Source of the DNA: Pyrococcus sp. NA2
Lineage (GTDB): Archaea; Methanobacteriota_B; Thermococci; Thermococcales; Thermococcaceae
Direction of reading: 5' to 3'
Assembly (NCBI RefSeq): GCF_000211475.1
Contig: NC_015474.1
Coordinates: 620,001 to 684,000, forward strand
DNA length: 64,000 nucleotides
How positions within the stretch are numbered: position 1 is the stretch's first letter; the number at the start of each line of letters is the position of its first letter. The translations under genes and the position numbers were made by a program. The notes beneath the pieces were generated by a model. The model worked only from the letters and a program-made list of their open reading frames with translations. It ran no database searches and was not told the DNA's origin. Below, in pieces: positions 55,055 through 61,329 of this stretch.

Positions 55055-55078
55055 GATTTTGGCAAGTGAGGTAAGACC

Positions 55079-57159
55079 TTCCAGGACAGGGAGATTGAAG
55101 TTTTGGAAGAGTTCAAGGGCGAGAGGCTCATCGGAAAGTACGTCAAGAACCCGGTAACGGGTGACGAAATCATTATTCTCCCAGCCGAGTTCGTCGACCC
55201 GGACAACGCTACTGGAGTTGTCATGAGCGTTTCGGCCCACGCGCCCTTTGACCACGTTGCGCTTGAAGACCTGAAGAAGGAGACTGAGATACTCCTCAAG
55301 TACGACATTGACCCGCGTGTCCTTGAGGAGATAAGCTACGTCTCGCTGATAGAGCTTGAGGGCTACGGCGACTTCCCGGCGGTGGAGGAAGTTGAAAGGC
55401 TGGGAATAAAGAGCCAGAAAGACAGGGAAAAGCTGGAGGAAGCGACAAAGAACATCTACAAGGCCGAGTACCACAAGGGGCGCTTTAAGATAGAGCCCTA
55501 CGCCGGAAAGCCAGTCCAAGAGGTCAAGGACGCCATAGCAAAGGAGCTAATCGAGAAGGGAATAGCGGAGATAATGTACGAGTTCGCGGAGAAGCCGGTC
55601 ATTTCGCGCTTCGGCAACCAGGCGGTCATCAAGATAATCCACGACCAGTGGTTTATCGACTATGGAAACCCCGAGTGGAAGGAAAAAGCCAAGAAGGCAT
55701 TGTCAAGAATGAAGATATATCCAGAAACAAGGAGGGCCCAGTTCGAGGCGGTAATAAACTGGCTCGACAAGAAGGCCTGTGCAAGGAAAGTAGGACTTGG
55801 AACTCCATTGCCCTGGGACCCGGACTGGGTCATCGAAAGCCTGAGCGACTCGACCATCTACATGGCCTACTACACCATAAGCAGACACATCAATCAGCTG
55901 AGGAAAGAGGGCAAGCTCGACCCCGAGAAGCTAAGCAGGGAGTTCTTCGACTGCATCTTCCGTGAGGACTTCAGCGAAGAAAGGGAAAGGGAGCTGGCGG
56001 AGAAGACCGGAATTCCTGCCCAGACAATCCGCGAGATGAAGGAGGAGTTCGAGTACTGGTACCCGCTCGACTGGCGCTGTTCCGCCAAAGACTTAATCCC
56101 GAACCACCTAACGTTCTTCATATTCAACCACACAGCCATCTTCAGGAAAGAGTACTGGCCGAGAGGAATAGCGGTAAACGGCTTCAGAACGCTGGAAGGC
56201 CAGAAGATGAGCAAGAGCAAGGGCAACGCGCTGAACTTCATCGACGCCATCGAGGAGAACGGTGCCGATGTGGTGAGGCTCTACATAATGGGATTGGCGG
56301 AGCACGACAGCGACTTCGACTGGCGCAGGAAGGAGGTCGGCAAGCTCCGCAGGCAGGTCGAGCGCTTCTATGAACTGATAAGCGAGTTCGCCACCTACGA
56401 GGTCAAGGAAGGCGTCAAGCTTAAGGACATCGACCACTGGATGTTCCACCGCCTGAACAAGGCCATCGAAGGCACCACTGAGCCCCTTGAGGAGCTCAGG
56501 ACGAGAACCGCTGTCCAATGGGCGTTCTACACGGTGCTAAACGACCTGCGCTGGATCTCAGGAGAACCGAGGGCAGGGACGATGATGCGAAGCGTCATGT
56601 CCTGAGAAAGCTCGCCGATGTGTGGGTCAGGCTCATGGCGCCGTTCACGCCACACATAGCGGAAGAGCTCTGGGAGAAGCTCGGCGGGGAGGGCTTTGTA
56701 AGCCTGGCAGAGTGGCCTGAGCCTGTTCCGGAGTGGTGGGACGAGACGGTTGAGGCGGAGGAGGAGTTCATAAAGGCCCTCATCGAGGACATCAGGGAGA
56801 TAATCGAGGTCGCGAAGATAGAGAAGGCGGAGAGGGCATACATATACACCGCCCCCGAGTGGAAGTGGCGCGTCGTTGAAGTCGTCGCAGAGAAGAGGGA
56901 CTTCAAGAGCGCGATGAGTGAACTGATGAAAGACCAGGAGATGAGGAAGCACGGCAAGGAGGTAAGCAAGCTCATCCAGAGGCTCATCAAGGAGAGGGCC
57001 TTCGAGGTCAAGCGCATAGACGAGGAGAAAACCCTGAGAGAGGCAAAGGACTTCATGGAGAAGGAACTCGGCTTGGAGATAATCATCAATCCAGAGGAGG
57101 ACAAAGGCGGAAAGAAGAAACAGGCGATGCCGCTGAAGCCGGCGGTGTTCGTGGAGTGA
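55079..57159 (+). pseudogene. leuS: Leucyl-tRNA synthetase remnant: N terminus missing, one frameshift
   Basis: Clear archaeal LeuRS sequence begins abruptly at FQDREIEVLEEFKGERL, with an in-frame stop 12 bases upstream (55067-55069). By comparison with the about 967-residue Pyrococcus enzyme, about 280 N-terminal residues are gone, including the HIGH motif. KMSKSKGN is kept. The frame breaks at 56554/56555: one T is missing from the codons for R-W-Y-L, moving the C-terminal 200 residues to another frame (which ends with KKQAMPLKP). GC content is higher than in nearby genes. It is a dead copy; the working leuS must be elsewhere. Confidence 0.92.
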
Positions 57160-57193
57160 TTTTTAACTTTTTTGTTGTGTCGTTTTTATTATT
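57160..57193 (+). terminator. T-rich tract after the LeuRS remnant
   Basis: Runs of five to six T (TTTTTAACTTTTTTG, then CGTTTTTATTATT) follow the stop codon of the LeuRS remnant and look like an archaeal U-tract terminator. On the minus strand the same DNA gives A runs, so it would not stop the RiPP operon. Confidence 0.45.
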
Positions 57194-57225
57194 GCTCCCA
57201 AAATTTAGAAAATCAAAAGGGCATG

Positions 57226-57942
57226 TTAGAAGGGTTTCTCAAGCATATATGTTGTATGGACAGTTTTAATACTCAGCCCAAGGAACAGCAAAGATAAGAC
57301 CACTGATACCCCCCATGAAATGAAGCAGTGGGCCTGAAGCCCAAGACTGCATCTTACGCATGCAAGTAAGTGAGTAACGGGGTTAAGCAGAAAACCAATG
57401 AAGTTAGAGTGATAATAAGCAGGGGAGAATACTACCAAGACCCAAGGAAGAATGCTTGTAACAGCGAGGATCTTGTAGGGATTTGCGATTTTTGCACCAA
57501 TGAAAACTCCCAGAGACCCCAGTTCAATGAATGTTAATAGTAGTGCAAGGAAGAGTAGGGGATAGTTAATTGAATGAATCCCCAAGTAATGCACAATGAG
57601 AGCTATTCCACCCAATACTTGGGGCAGAACGAAAAGAGAATACGTAATGAACTGAGCGAGTACTACATGGCTTATTCTAGGAGGAAGGGTTGCGTAAAGT
57701 TCCAGAACACTTGGTTCAAAGATATTGCTCACCCGGTTTGTGAGAGTTCCGATTAATGAGCTAACGGTAGATACAATGATAAATCCACTGACGAGGTATG
57801 ATATCTCCAGAGGATCAGTTGTCTTTGAGTTCATGACCATCATGAAGAGTAGGGAAAATGGCATCACGAAGAGGTTGACCAGCAGGAATGTTTTATAGAG
57901 CCTCATCCCCTTGAGCTCCATTGATACAAGTGCTCTCAACAT
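57226..57942 (-). CDS. ABC-2-type permease of the RiPP cluster
   Basis: A 238-residue membrane protein with six predicted helices (for example YKTFLLVNLFVMPFSLLFMM; YLVSGFIIVSTVSSLIG; VLAQFITYSLFVLPQVLGG), in the ABC-2 exporter layout with an N-terminal cytoplasmic helix. It abuts the ATPase gene (shared base) and is the last gene of the operon precursor-maturase-ATPase-permease. It most likely exports the modified peptide or gives self-protection against it. No peptidase domain is present. Confidence 0.83.
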   Translation of the reverse strand: MLRALVSMELKGMRLYKTFLLVNLFVMPFSLLFMMVMNSKTTDPLEISYLVSGFIIVSTVSSLIGTLTNRVSNIFEPSVLELYATLPPRISHVVLAQFITYSLFVLPQVLGGIALIVHYLGIHSINYPLLFLALLLTFIELGSLGVFIGAKIANPYKILAVTSILPWVLVVFSPAYYHSNFIGFLLNPVTHLLACVRCSLGLQAHCFISWGVSVVLSLLFLGLSIKTVHTTYMLEKPF

Positions 57943-58850
57943 CAGCCATCCCTCCTAAGTAAGTTCACAATGAGCTTTTCGAATGAAGGGGAATTCAACT
58001 CAAGATATGATATACCAACCGTATTATTCACTTTCTCAATGGTCTTAATAGCATCTTCAAGGGTTTCAAACGATATCTCATAGAGTTTACCTTTTTGTGT
58101 ATAGTTATAGTTTTTGGGTAAAATTCCGGCTATATTACCTTCCCGGGGGATTATCTTAACCTCAGTTGGCATCTTCATCAATGAAACTATATCTGCTGGA
58201 GTTCCCGAGGTTATGATTCTTCCTTCAACAAGGATATAAATCCTATTGCAGAGTTCTTTAACCTCAGTCATATCATGGCTGGCTATGAGAACACCATCAT
58301 GGTGATGCTCACGTATCACCTCCCAAAGTCTGTACTTTGTAACAACATCAACCATGCTAGTTGGTTCATCCAGCACAAGGATTGGTAGTTCTTGAATTAG
58401 AGCCATTGCAAGGAGAAGTGTTTTTCTCATTCCTCCAGAAAGTTGATATCCAAAAAACTCTCTGGCGTTCTCTAAGTTCAAAACGTGAAGGACGTTCGAT
58501 ATTTTTTCTTCCCGTATCTTAGCTGAGGAAACACCTCTCATTCTAAGGACATAATCAAGGATCTCTCTGACTGTTAGTGAAGGAAAAGTTAGTGGGTATT
58601 GTGGCACGTAGCCAATGAATTCTTTCGGAATAGTCGGGTTTTTTGTCACATCTTTTCCCATAACCTTTATAACTCCTTCTGTTGGTTTAAGCAGACCAAG
58701 TAACTGACGTATCAATGTTGTTTTTCCTGCACCATTGGGACCAACTATTCCCACAATTTCTCCACGTTTTACCTTAATAGAGATATTATCATTGGCCTTT
58801 GTCCCATCAGGGTATATTTTTGTTAAATTTTTGATCTCGATAACATTCAT
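57942..58850 (-). CDS. ABC transporter ATPase of the RiPP cluster
   Basis: A 302-residue ABC-2-type ATPase. Walker A is GPNGAGKTT, the Q-loop is YVPQYPLTF, the signature is YQLSGGM, Walker B is LPILVLDEPTSM, and the H-loop is ASHDM. A C-terminal extension of about 80 residues follows, as in many drug/peptide exporters of the CcmA/YhaQ type. Its start overlaps the maturase stop by 4 bp, so its level is tied to the maturase. Confidence 0.9.
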   Translation of the reverse strand: MNVIEIKNLTKIYPDGTKANDNISIKVKRGEIVGIVGPNGAGKTTLIRQLLGLLKPTEGVIKVMGKDVTKNPTIPKEFIGYVPQYPLTFPSLTVREILDYVLRMRGVSSAKIREEKISNVLHVLNLENAREFFGYQLSGGMRKTLLLAMALIQELPILVLDEPTSMVDVVTKYRLWEVIREHHHDGVLIASHDMTEVKELCNRIYILVEGRIITSGTPADIVSLMKMPTEVKIIPREGNIAGILPKNYNYTQKGKLYEISFETLEDAIKTIEKVNNTVGISYLELNSPSFEKLIVNLLRRDG

Positions 58851-60166
58851 TGTATCTCCCCCAATACCCCCTTATATTTTGATTGAACATATAACTTTAT
58901 CAAAGTTTCATAGTTCTTAAGATATGCTAAATTACACGAAATTCTTGACTTCGTGGCGTTACCCATCCATTTACATCCCCCATAACATATTGGTTCAAAT
59001 TTGCATTTTGTCATGCATGGAGGTTCAAAGTTTATTAACGAGTACCACCTAGAGCTGGTTATAATTAGCTTACCCTTTTTACTAATATACCCATCTGGTT
59101 TTGAATAAAGAAATCCTGGACATTTATAAACATTTAAATTCTCATCTACAGCAAAGCTATAGGCATGTGACGCCATACATGGGCCAAAGACCATGGGGTT
59201 TCCAATTTTATATCCCAAATCAACTGCAAAATGATATAGCTCAACCAAAACCTCTGACTTTGCTTTGTCTAATATATGAGCACTACCCACTTTAATTGCC
59301 GTTTGAGTTGGAAAGATATACTCGAATCCTACTGAGCCTAACGTCTCGTGAAGTCCGTACTCATCATGGAGATACATCAAAAGAGACCTAACGCTTTCTT
59401 TATTGGCCTTGTTTACATTCATCCTTAGCACAATTCTCCCTCTGAATTCATCAATATTATCAAGCAGATTTTTTAGGATGATATCAAAGGATCCTTCCCC
59501 ATTGGGGAAGGGACGCATTACATCATGGGTTTCTTTCATCCCATCTAGTGTAATCTGCACAGTGGTAGAGTACTGCGAAAGTTCCTGTCCGATCTCTTTA
59601 GAGAATAAAGTCCCGTTAGTTATAATAGATGCATCATAGCTGACTCCCGAATCTCTCAAAGTTTCTAAGTCCCTAAGGGCCAATGTTAAGGTTTCAATAT
59701 TTAGGAGGGGTTCACCGCCAAAAAAGGCAATGCTAATTCCCTTTAAGGCATCTTTACTATTAATAAACATCATTATTCTTTTCCAGTTCTCTGGAGCCAA
59801 ATCTTGCTGGGATGAGAATTTCTTTCTTAAGTCTTGGTAGCAATAGGGACAAGCCAGGTTGCATCTGGATGTTAAATTCACAAATATTCCCATATGTGTA
59901 GGGTTATATTTTTGCAGATTAATCAAAGTTCTCATAACTTCAGTTTCATCGATGTCCTCAGATACCAAAAACCCAAGTTCAATTAATTGATCTAGAACCT
60001 CTTTGGGCACATTTTCAAAGTTTTGACTATTAATTGTTTCCCATATCTTAGGAGATATCGCAATTAAAGACTTATATAACACATGGTATAATATATAATA
60101 TCTTGTGTTTCCAATAGTATAGGGTACCTCAAGTATATACTTGGAAACTTTTCTTGAGGTTTCCAT
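58847..60166 (-). CDS. Radical SAM/SPASM peptide maturase
   Basis: A 439-residue enzyme likely to modify the peptide encoded just upstream. Residues about 1-75 look like a peptide-binding winged-helix (RRE-like) segment. The radical SAM cluster motif is CNLACPYC (Cys102, 106, 109), followed by FFGGEPLL and ITNGTLF. The C terminus has a full SPASM set: Cys330, Cys349, Cys384-x3-Cys388-x5-Cys394-x3-Cys398 and Cys411. This layout is typical of enzymes that make thioether or related links in Cys-containing peptides. ATG 60166 has the SD GGAGGTGA; a TTG 15 bases upstream is in frame. It lies 63 bp after the precursor gene. Confidence 0.9.
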   Translation of the reverse strand: METSRKVSKYILEVPYTIGNTRYYILYHVLYKSLIAISPKIWETINSQNFENVPKEVLDQLIELGFLVSEDIDETEVMRTLINLQKYNPTHMGIFVNLTSRCNLACPYCYQDLRKKFSSQQDLAPENWKRIMMFINSKDALKGISIAFFGGEPLLNIETLTLALRDLETLRDSGVSYDASIITNGTLFSKEIGQELSQYSTTVQITLDGMKETHDVMRPFPNGEGSFDIILKNLLDNIDEFRGRIVLRMNVNKANKESVRSLLMYLHDEYGLHETLGSVGFEYIFPTQTAIKVGSAHILDKAKSEVLVELYHFAVDLGYKIGNPMVFGPCMASHAYSFAVDENLNVYKCPGFLYSKPDGYISKKGKLIITSSRWYSLINFEPPCMTKCKFEPICYGGCKWMGNATKSRISCNLAYLKNYETLIKLYVQSKYKGVLGEIQ

Positions 60167-60189
60167 CGGCATCACCTCCAAGGGTTATC

Positions 60190-60226
60190 TCTAATTGCTT
60201 TTCCTAAAAAACAAAAGGAAAAAGAA
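60190..60226 (-). terminator. T-rich tract between precursor and maturase genes
   Basis: On the minus strand the bases after the precursor stop run TTTCTTTTTCCTTTTGTTTTTT. This could end most transcripts after the small gene and let some read through, giving more precursor than enzyme, as is common in RiPP operons. Confidence 0.4.
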
Positions 60227-60229
60227 ACA

Positions 60230-60328
60230 TTAATCCTTCACCGGGTTGCAAAACACACCACAGAAGTTGGGTTCGTCAAATCCAGACGAACCCCTATCAA
60301 GTACAACAATCTCCTTAACTTCCTCCAT
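60230..60328 (-). CDS. RiPP precursor peptide, 32 residues
   Basis: A short frame with a strong SD (GGAGGTGAT, four bases before ATG 60328). It encodes MEEVKEIVVLDRGSSGF, then DEP, then NFCGVFCNPVKD. The N-terminal acidic/hydrophobic half would be the leader, and the C-terminal half with two cysteines (Cys23 and Cys27, C-x3-C, next to aromatic and Asn residues) the core. There is no GG cleavage site. It is followed by the radical SAM/SPASM maturase and an ABC exporter, the typical setting of a modified peptide. It is too short for usual gene finders. The call as precursor is inference from SD, size, cysteines and context. Confidence 0.78.
   Translation of the reverse strand: MEEVKEIVVLDRGSSGFDEPNFCGVFCNPVKD
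60269..60293 (-). repeat. Perfect 9-bp hairpin inside the precursor gene
   Basis: GGGTTCGTC (60269-60277) and GACGAACCC (60285-60293) are exact reverse complements around a 7-base loop. In the RNA this makes a stable stem over the codons for GSSGFDEP, between leader and core. It could stabilise or slow the message, or simply reflect codon choice. Confidence 0.7.
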
Positions 60329-60373
60329 GCTATCACCTCCTCTATGTTTTTGCACTCAAGTTTAGGCTACACT

Positions 60374-60384
60374 CCTTTATAAGT
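60374..60384 (-). promoter_or_regulatory. TATA box of the RiPP operon
   Basis: The minus strand reads ACTTATAAAGG here, preceded by the A-rich CAGTAAA where a BRE would sit. It lies about 46-56 bases upstream of the precursor ATG, giving a leader of about 20-25 bases that contains the SD. Confidence 0.6.
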
Positions 60385-60420
60385 TTTACTGTTACAAGAA
60401 GTATTTAAGAAAACGGCTAT

Positions 60421-60466
60421 AGTAATTCAATTAATACCACTTAAGTAATTTAATTAATACCACTTA
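60421..60466. repeat. Two tandem 23-bp repeats upstream of the RiPP promoter
   Basis: AGTAATTCAATTAATACCAC plus TTA at 60421-60443 is repeated at 60444-60466 with one change (C to T). The repeats lie about 40-85 bases upstream of the TATA box, a place used by archaeal activators, and contain the palindrome-like TTAATTAA in one copy. No other copy was noticed in the window. Confidence 0.75.
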
Positions 60467-60602
60467 ACTTCGAACCACCTAAAAGAAACAGAGCCAGAGT
60501 AAAGGAGTTGCATGACCATGCAATGGGAATAAACATGATCCCCAGGAATTCCAGAACAGAAAGAATCAAAAATTCGTACCAGTAATTACTTCGACCCCAC
60601 CC

Positions 60603-60610
60603 TATAAAAC
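60603..60610 (+). promoter_or_regulatory. TATA-like element before the methyltransferase remnant
   Basis: TATAAAAC lies about 56-63 bases before ATG 60666, preceded by the CACCC stretch. It is the only convincing TATA on the plus strand here, so the broken gene may still be transcribed. Confidence 0.4.
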
Positions 60611-60665
60611 CTTTTTCCCGAAAACGCCTTAAAAAGAAGCCCGTTAGAGGTTTTCGGTGTTTTTC

Positions 60666-61277
60666 ATGCATTTTGGCGAGGAAACGTTTAAGAAAGAAGT
60701 CCTTTCAAAAATCCCACCTCGGAACGAGCCACCTTTGCCCCCTAATTGGCTCCACATCGAGATGCTCGAACGCTTCCGAGTCCTCCAGTTCGTACCCATC
60801 AGGGAAGGTATGAACGTCCTTGAGATAGGATGTGGAGCGCACGCCCTAACGACCGTTCCGCTCGCCTACCTCCTCGGAGAGACCGGCCGCGTTGTTGCAG
60901 TTGATAAATCGAGATGGCGCTTCTTCGAGGAGGTAACTTCAGTCACTGGCGTCAAGCACTGGATAATACCCCTAAAGCTCGACGCAAGGGAGCTTCCCTT
61001 CCCGTTCAAGGCCTTTGATTTGGCCGTCCTCGTTCACGGAATTAGGAGCCTAAAGAGCGAGGAAACGATGGTTAAGGTCATCTCCGAGATGCTCCGCGTG
61101 GCCGAGAATGTCTTCATCGCGGAGAGTCTGCCTATAGCAAACAACGAGAGGCAAAGGGCACATCTTGAGCTCTTCCTTGTCAAACTCCATCAACACCACC
61201 GGGAGTCTCTATACTTACAGTCGGATCCATGTACACCATTGCTCCAGCTTCAGCCTGAACGGCTTCTCCCCCTTTGA
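60666..61277 (+). pseudogene. SAM-dependent methyltransferase, C-terminally truncated
   Basis: From ATG 60666 the frame reads as a good methyltransferase: MNVLEIGCGAHALTTVPLAYL is motif I, VVAVDKSRWRFFEE the acidic loop, and LDARELPFPFKAFDLAVLVHG motif II/III. Up to HLELF (about 61170) it looks native and GC-rich, Thermococcus-like. After that the frame reads antisense to another broken gene (AIM24-like) and gives a meaningless tail (KLHQHHRESLYLQSD and on) to 61277. The true C-terminal part is lost by a deletion or recombination. It belongs to the right edge of the island. Confidence 0.78.
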
Positions 61278-61329
61278 GATCTACCTCCAAGAGAGAAAAG
61301 CTTGGCCTATGCTCAATCCTGTACTCCAT
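61180..61329 (-). pseudogene. N-terminal 49 codons of an AIM24/TIGR00266-like gene
   Basis: On the minus strand a frame starts at ATG 61329 and reads MEYRIEHRPSFSLLEVDL, then GGEAVQAEAGAMVYMDP and TVSIETPGGVDGV before a TGA at 61180-61182. The 'Y-x-I-x-x-R-P-S-x-S-L-L-x-V' opening and 'EAGAMVYM' are the typical start of AIM24-family proteins (about 220-260 residues). Only the N terminus remains; the cut point (about 61175-61190) is the same as that of the methyltransferase on the other strand, so one event joined the two broken ends. Confidence 0.72.

Follow-up and report, generated by a model that had tools for sequence, protein, structure and literature searches.

The sequence under study is a 64,000-nucleotide (nt) stretch of the Pyrococcus sp. 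NA2 genome (NC_015474.1, positions 620,001 to 684,000 of the forward strand; hereafter the window), in which four consecutive minus-strand genes encode a 32-residue peptide, a radical S-adenosylmethionine (SAM)/SPASM peptide maturase, an ATP-binding cassette (ABC) ATPase, and an ABC-2 permease. A first-pass annotation had described these as an operon for a ribosomally synthesized and post-translationally modified peptide (RiPP), and all four genes were read directly from the window in the order it gave. The peptide gene (60230..60328) starts with ATG and encodes MEEVKEIVVLDRGSSGFDEPNFCGVFCNPVKD, comprising a leader, MEEVKEIVVLDRGSSGFDEPN, and a core, FCGVFCNPVKD, with a putative boundary between them. 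Its stop codon is separated by 63 nt, the spacing originally reported, from the start of the maturase gene (58847..60166; 439 amino acids [aa], with an N-terminus of about residues 1 to 70 resembling a RiPP recognition element [RRE]). The latter overlaps by 4 nt the gene for the ABC ATPase (57942..58850; 302 aa, DrrA/CcmA type, PF00005 at 1.9e-32, TIGR01188 below cut-off), which abuts the permease gene (57226..57942; 238 aa, all-helical in its predicted fold) through a TGATG junction, in keeping with the overlaps and abutments claimed for the last three genes.

Signals surrounding the peptide gene were also found on the minus strand. A Shine-Dalgarno sequence, GGAGGTGAT (60332..60340), lies just upstream of the ATG and, as the first-pass annotation had proposed, is a genuine element conserved in orthologous loci. 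An upstream GTG start at 60355, which would give a 41-aa open reading frame (ORF), was ruled out because the Shine-Dalgarno sequence and the orthologs favor the ATG at 60328. The proposed TATA box corresponds to a TATA-like promoter element recognized by consensus only, AAAACTTATAAAG (60375..60387), about 47 nt upstream of the ATG; its TTATAAA holds its position in the four nearest relatives, but just loosely so in a fifth, G093. A T-rich tract follows the peptide stop in all loci (60185..60229 in the window) and is a candidate leaky archaeal terminator. T content of this 45-nt tract is 49% in the window and 36 to 64% in relatives, with seven to nine T in the best 10 nt, and only 0.26% of the 45-mers in the window contain at least 50% T.

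The first-pass annotation had suggested a six-frame search of Thermococcales genomes for peptides beside maturase homologs, and had held that the lack of a conserved peptide there would speak against its reading. We searched 94 Thermococcaceae genomes (compared genomes carry G-numbers, the host's own being G000, and stretches taken from genomes carry L-numbers) for the maturase first, and small ORFs were then located by their position upstream. Orthologs with 50 to 63% identity occurred in G021, G063, G054, and G093, and G017 encoded an ortholog with an internal in-frame deletion. A similar small ORF lay immediately upstream of the maturase at every orthologous locus (6/6, in five other species and the window). 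A profile built from the five distinct peptides and run over all six frames of the same genomes matched these loci (E values of 7e-18 to 4e-23, and 2e-12 for G093), high scores that arise by construction since the profile was made from those loci; no match was found beyond the six maturase loci, the next best having an E value of 0.003. What is informative is that position had already identified the peptides before the profile was built, and that scores are confined to these loci. The peptides yielded dN/dS ratios of 0.08 to 0.20 in the few pairs where dS was unsaturated, and the Shine-Dalgarno sequence, T-rich tract, and TATA-like box were common to the peptide loci, most weakly in G093. The peptide had no match in Pfam or NCBIfam, nor had two of its orthologs in NCBIfam. 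On this comparative evidence, the 32-aa ORF is a genuine peptide gene, and the first-pass reading withstood the refuting condition that it had named.

The maturase matched the radical SAM family PF04055 (2.5e-14) in Pfam, while its best NCBIfam match was the geopeptide maturase TIGR04280 (3.2e-52), at 177.9 bits vs. a cut-off of 400; the next matches, CefB, TIGR04463, Clo7bot, and PapB, were all far below cut-off. PADLOC matches to viperin and mad3 were set aside as superfamily-level only. Ten cysteines are invariant in five orthologs, namely C102, C106, and C109 of the CX3CX2C motif and the seven SPASM residues C330, C349, C384, C388, C394, C398, and C411, bearing out the claim that the set of cluster cysteines is complete. 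The SPASM spacing is C-x3-C-x5-C-x3-C in all five orthologs vs. the usual C-x2-C-x5-C-x3-C form carried by most paralogs. In a tree of 30 proteins, the five orthologs grouped together (100/100) at the end of a long stem, with the geopeptide, Cys-rich, and CefB clades placed separately. An AlphaFold2 (AF2) model of the maturase (pLDDT 83.6) aligned over its full length with CteB (5why/5wgg) and TigE (8vpo) as nearest folds, CteB having 17% identity over the fold. Residues 11 to 63 of the model form three strands followed by helices, resembling an RRE, with no sequence-profile match to that domain.

In SPASM enzymes carrying an RRE, the leader is bound by this domain and residues of the core are modified. 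The RRE domain has been described previously, CteB is a thioether-forming enzyme with an RRE, and its auxiliary cluster can bind a cysteine of its peptide (PMC8326336). RiPP biosynthesis by a previously unnamed Thermococcales family is well supported by the predicted fold, the cluster cysteines, the RRE-like N-terminus, and peptides in which the leader is conserved and the core variable. A single-sequence scan of genome contigs from 84,980 species found no relative, and an alignment scan with few patterns returned, among the matches listed, one close ortholog (L160, apparently G063) and otherwise relatives of 24 to 30% identity, so the family may reach beyond the Thermococcaceae. Only distant radical SAM proteins were found in plasmids, phages, and viral contigs.

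Alignment of the five distinct peptides gave the consensus EE-x-IVLE-x-G-x3-F-x-E-P-N-F-(0-4)-C-G-x-F-C, with [IV]VL[ED] variants of the leader box. The leader hardly changes, whereas the peptides differ in core length and cysteine number (two to three), the core variants being CGVFCNPVKD in the window and CGVFCNPVKGGDNPN, CGSFCNPVKDNPN, CGCFCSPIKGGDNPN, and VCGLCGFCGAFPLPT in relatives. The C-x3-C core originally noticed (NFCGVFCNP) is thus part of a C-G-x-F-C element that is conserved across the aligned orthologs and is the best conserved element of the core. A thioether in this element is the leading guess for the chemistry. F17, F22, and F26 are invariant as well, and several SPASM relatives in NCBIfam form cyclophanes, so there is a small but real chance that the maturase instead forms a C-C bond (cyclophane) or another link without Cys, with F22 or F26 as possible sites, leaving the cysteines free or in a disulfide. 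However, no consistent aromatic-x-x-acceptor motif is seen (F-C-N, F-C-S, and F-C-G occur), C-G-x-F-C is best conserved, and the nearest solved fold belongs to a thioether-forming enzyme. N21 is also invariant, and an NxxC-type Asn-Cys bridge, as in NxxcA, was considered and rejected; an Asn likewise ends the leader of a Cys-rich precursor family from Thermococcus, where its distance to the first cysteine is variable, and N21 is therefore better explained as a site of cleavage or recognition.

The family shares features with several known systems. Geopeptide systems (TIGR04280, Geobacter and relatives) likewise place a SPASM maturase beside an ORF of about 33 aa with an [IV]VL[DE]-x-G leader box and a short C-terminal Cys core, and short Cys-bearing ORFs of this kind were seen upstream of Geobacter geopeptide-type maturases (e.g., MATEEKGLEVLDEGIENCEEVAKCCTTVNQART). 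In contrast, the window maturase fails the class cut-off and falls outside the Geobacter clade, and its family has a C-G-x-F-C rather than a CC core, an ABC-2 pair, and C-x3-C in SPASM. The Thermococcus Cys-rich precursors (about 50 to 75 aa), a group to which a precursor at 503 kb of the host genome (L062) also belongs, have a comparable leader, MEF-x-[IL][IL]E-x-GS...GN vs. EE-x-IVLE-x-GS...PN, and a maturase about 30% identical, but many more core cysteines and a separate 100/100 maturase clade. Resemblance of the leader box to both groups, seen by eye with no background score, is a lead. Cys-every-fifth systems (CefA/CefB, NF038108/NF038107) also use a SPASM maturase and are present in other Thermococcaceae; however, the window maturase scores 173 bits vs. 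a cut-off of 600 for CefB (NF038107), its peptide has no Cys-every-fifth repeat, and CefA (NF038108) matched none of the peptides of the window family. The ranthipeptide/SCIFF maturases CteB and PapB have an RRE, radical SAM, and SPASM architecture like that predicted for the window maturase and include the closest solved fold, but identity over the fold is 17% and the window peptide lacks a six-Cys or CX3D/E core. The CX3D/CX3E cross-link motif typifies ranthipeptides of the PapA type (PMC9413430), and none was found in any of the five distinct peptides.

Although the permease had no Pfam match of its own, PF12698 (ABC2_membrane_3) was matched by 8 of 11 relatives, and the C-terminal YMLEKPF of the permease is invariant. 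Its AF2 model (pLDDT 80.5) resembles KpsM, Wzm, and PmtCD (best E value 2e-3, probability 1.00), which at this E value gives a fold class only. A permease search found homologs in 13 genomes, and four of these (G048, G051, G059, and G072) keep an intact ATPase-permease pair, 64 to 67% identical to that of the window, without peptide and maturase; G088, with an ATPase at a contig end only, was left out of this count. dN/dS among the orphan pairs was 0.09 to 0.20, similar to complete loci and consistent with purifying selection. In G072, a 23-aa maturase C-terminus is joined to the ATPase start, and the maturase has therefore been lost there. In the ATPase tree, the G051 orphan groups with G063 and G017 (90/95) and those of G048, G059, and G072 sit together in a separate clade (99/98); hence, peptide and maturase have been lost at least twice independently.

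Because four genomes keep the pair intact without peptide and maturase, it probably gives immunity, perhaps with export. The first-pass annotation had proposed a peptide modification and export system; its biosynthetic half stands, but for the ABC pair immunity is the better reading, whether or not export is involved too. Exporters of the SkfE-SkfF and PmtCD type have an immunity role. They resemble the pair in the window in placing an ATPase and an ABC-2 permease beside a peptide gene, and PmtCD is among the permease fold matches, but identity is only 11 to 13%, and the substrate and immunity role of the window pair are putative. It seems unlikely that the pair is an exporter only and the mature peptide a signal or a metal- or redox-active molecule rather than a toxin. 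That explanation leaves RiPP biosynthesis unchanged and draws on two features: at every complete locus the maturase gene is overlapped or abutted by the pair, and the permease fold is of the ABC-2 exporter type. However, purifying selection on intact orphan pairs is not explained by a dedicated exporter whose peptide is absent, and conflict accounts better than a core signal for a distribution that is patchy and shaped by transfer.

Cofactors and electron carriers are likewise reported as products of SPASM maturases (PMC3023750), the 32-aa precursor is short and lacks a secretion signal, and AOR-like and FAD oxidoreductase genes (named by eye) flank the complete operon in three Thermococcus loci (G021, G054, and G017). 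An intracellular cofactor or redox carrier, comparable to pyrroloquinoline quinone or mycofactocin, is nonetheless a very improbable product. The oxidoreductases are not beside the operon in the window or G093, and the same FAD oxidoreductase and/or AOR-like genes neighbor the orphan pairs, remaining where only the ABC pair is left; hence, they mark the site and are not linked partners. The dedicated ABC pair, the diversifying core, and the lack of an intact operon in eight other Pyrococcus genomes also argue against a cofactor.

Taken together, we consider it likely that this is a RiPP operon whose SPASM maturase installs cross-links in the C-G-x-F-C core and whose product is expelled by the ABC pair as immunity. 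The leader strand (EE-x-IVVLD-x-G) would be bound by the RRE-like N-terminus of the maturase, which would generate a 5'-deoxyadenosyl radical and cross-link the core at one or more points; Cys thioethers are the most likely bonds, with the auxiliary cluster holding the thiolate. Precursor may be kept in excess over the enzyme by a leaky poly-T terminator behind the peptide gene, and a protease encoded outside the operon may then remove the leader close to the conserved P-N-F junction. TldD/E, which trims other RiPPs, is a candidate, and three TldD/TldE-like pairs are encoded in the host genome, one of them lying about 12 kb away from the operon (G000:C1:692509-694070); it is a candidate only, since such genes are common. 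The ATPase-permease complex would expel the product and so protect the cell, being kept alone by nonproducers as resistance, and the product would probably act in antagonism between close Thermococcales. More tentatively, the family may represent an antagonistic RiPP of hyperthermophiles that belongs to a new structural class, with a cross-linked C-G-x-F-C core and a product of perhaps 10 to 15 residues made by a SPASM enzyme with a displaced cluster cysteine, spread among Thermococcales by DNA capture, and with ABC-only resistant strains forming a producer/resistant ecology at hydrothermal vents.

Several observations weigh against this interpretation. As first noted for the window, no protease gene lies in the operon, and none was found in that of any relative, so leader removal would proceed without a dedicated gene. 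Known core motifs (CX3D/E, SCIFF, and nested hairpin) fit none of the peptides, and the core is very short. G093, one complete relative, has diverged in core and promoter, and the G063 locus ends inside the permease at a contig end. Genes could be hidden by gaps in draft assemblies such as those of G048 and G051, which are about 82% complete, and upstream genes of G048 could be missing because its contig begins at the ATPase, whereas G059 and G072 are better assembled. The orphan pairs could also have acquired another substrate.

Although the operon is present in a Pyrococcus as first described, it was imported horizontally and is not a native Pyrococcus feature. A second leuS in the window (55077-57159) has lost its 5' part and is frameshifted (frames 55103-56605 and 56518-57159); it has 85% nt identity to Thermococcus leuS vs. 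79% to the intact leuS of the host (G000:C1:1538927-1541013). A truncated methyltransferase gene (about 60657-61173) is absent from the eight other Pyrococcus genomes; many Thermococcus genomes have it beside leuS, often separated from it by variable cargo. Native sequence ends at 55076 and resumes at 61205, and the same points lie 506 bp apart in G001, with flanks matching on both sides; the insertion of about 6.1 kb broke a native gene that encodes 218 aa in G001 (L148:3804-4460), leaving its start as a remnant at 61180-61329. Given the leuS identity, the methyltransferase distribution, and these breakpoints, sequence comparison places the operon within a captured fragment of about 6.1 kb (55077..61205, strand unassigned) that comprises leuS, operon, and methyltransferase, came from an unsampled Thermococcus-like donor, and replaced about 0.5 kb of native DNA. 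A mobile element was considered and dropped, no integrase or transposase gene being recognized by eye in the ORF list of the segment.

The distribution of the operon is patchy (six of the 94 genomes). Near leuS in G002, G004, and G007 lie decayed remnants of related systems, which show, as judged from sequence, that other Pyrococcus lineages once carried something similar. Decay of such loci in these three genomes, G017, and G021, and arrival alongside a broken leuS and a truncated methyltransferase, would fit a recently captured passenger that is no longer functional in its host. This is improbable, given that the four frames, promoter, Shine-Dalgarno sequence, and overlaps are intact while the co-imported leuS is frameshifted, and that the maturase Cys set is complete. 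Overall, the system represents a genuine RiPP family of hyperthermophilic archaea that is both conserved and moving laterally.

Full-text searches of an open-access library found no work on radical SAM RiPPs from Thermococcales; an earlier mention is possible in Makarova 2019 (mBio), probably the survey of archaeal peptide weapons closest to this subject. Archaeal peptide weapons are few, halocins and sulfolobicins being named in a 2015 review (PMC4609331) and lanthipeptides added in 2023 (PMC10105419). The system described here is minimal, complete, and expressible, and the Fe-S enzymes of its host should be heat-stable. It comes with natural variants of precursor and maturase, natural nonproducers in which the transporter persists, and relatives in genetically tractable Thermococcus. 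The bond formed, leader removal without a dedicated peptidase, and competition of hyperthermophilic archaea by modified peptides become testable questions.

Further loci were seen during these comparisons. G021 has a second, decayed copy of the operon (L055:3115-5000), with a frameshifted ATPase and an intact permease adjoining another ABC transporter, and its maturase C-terminus shares 86% identity with the G093 one. In Thermococcus, the interval between leuS and the methyltransferase gene (L145, L146, and L147) is a variable cargo site with predicted secreted proteins that share similar signal-like N-termini, M-[KR]-W-K-x-L-x-A-V-L-L-G-L-L. The host genome contains a second RiPP locus at about 503 kb of G000:C1 (L062:5030-5251), where a 73-aa Cys-rich precursor (MEFEIIERGSGEGIAGNLSCTCY...) lies directly upstream of a SPASM maturase, and relatives of this locus occur in at least five other Thermococcaceae genomes. 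Tandem precursors of the Cys-every-fifth type precede CefB-type maturases in other Thermococcaceae (L063:4294-4635 and L065:2389-2782), one being a match to NF038108 (CefA; 4e-16). A 39-aa peptide, MKIETLYTTKEEITSGCQVPPNFYGCPNLCITIDDEESE, upstream of another SPASM maturase is near-identical in two Thermococcaceae genomes (L066:5097-5216 and L067:4167-4286).

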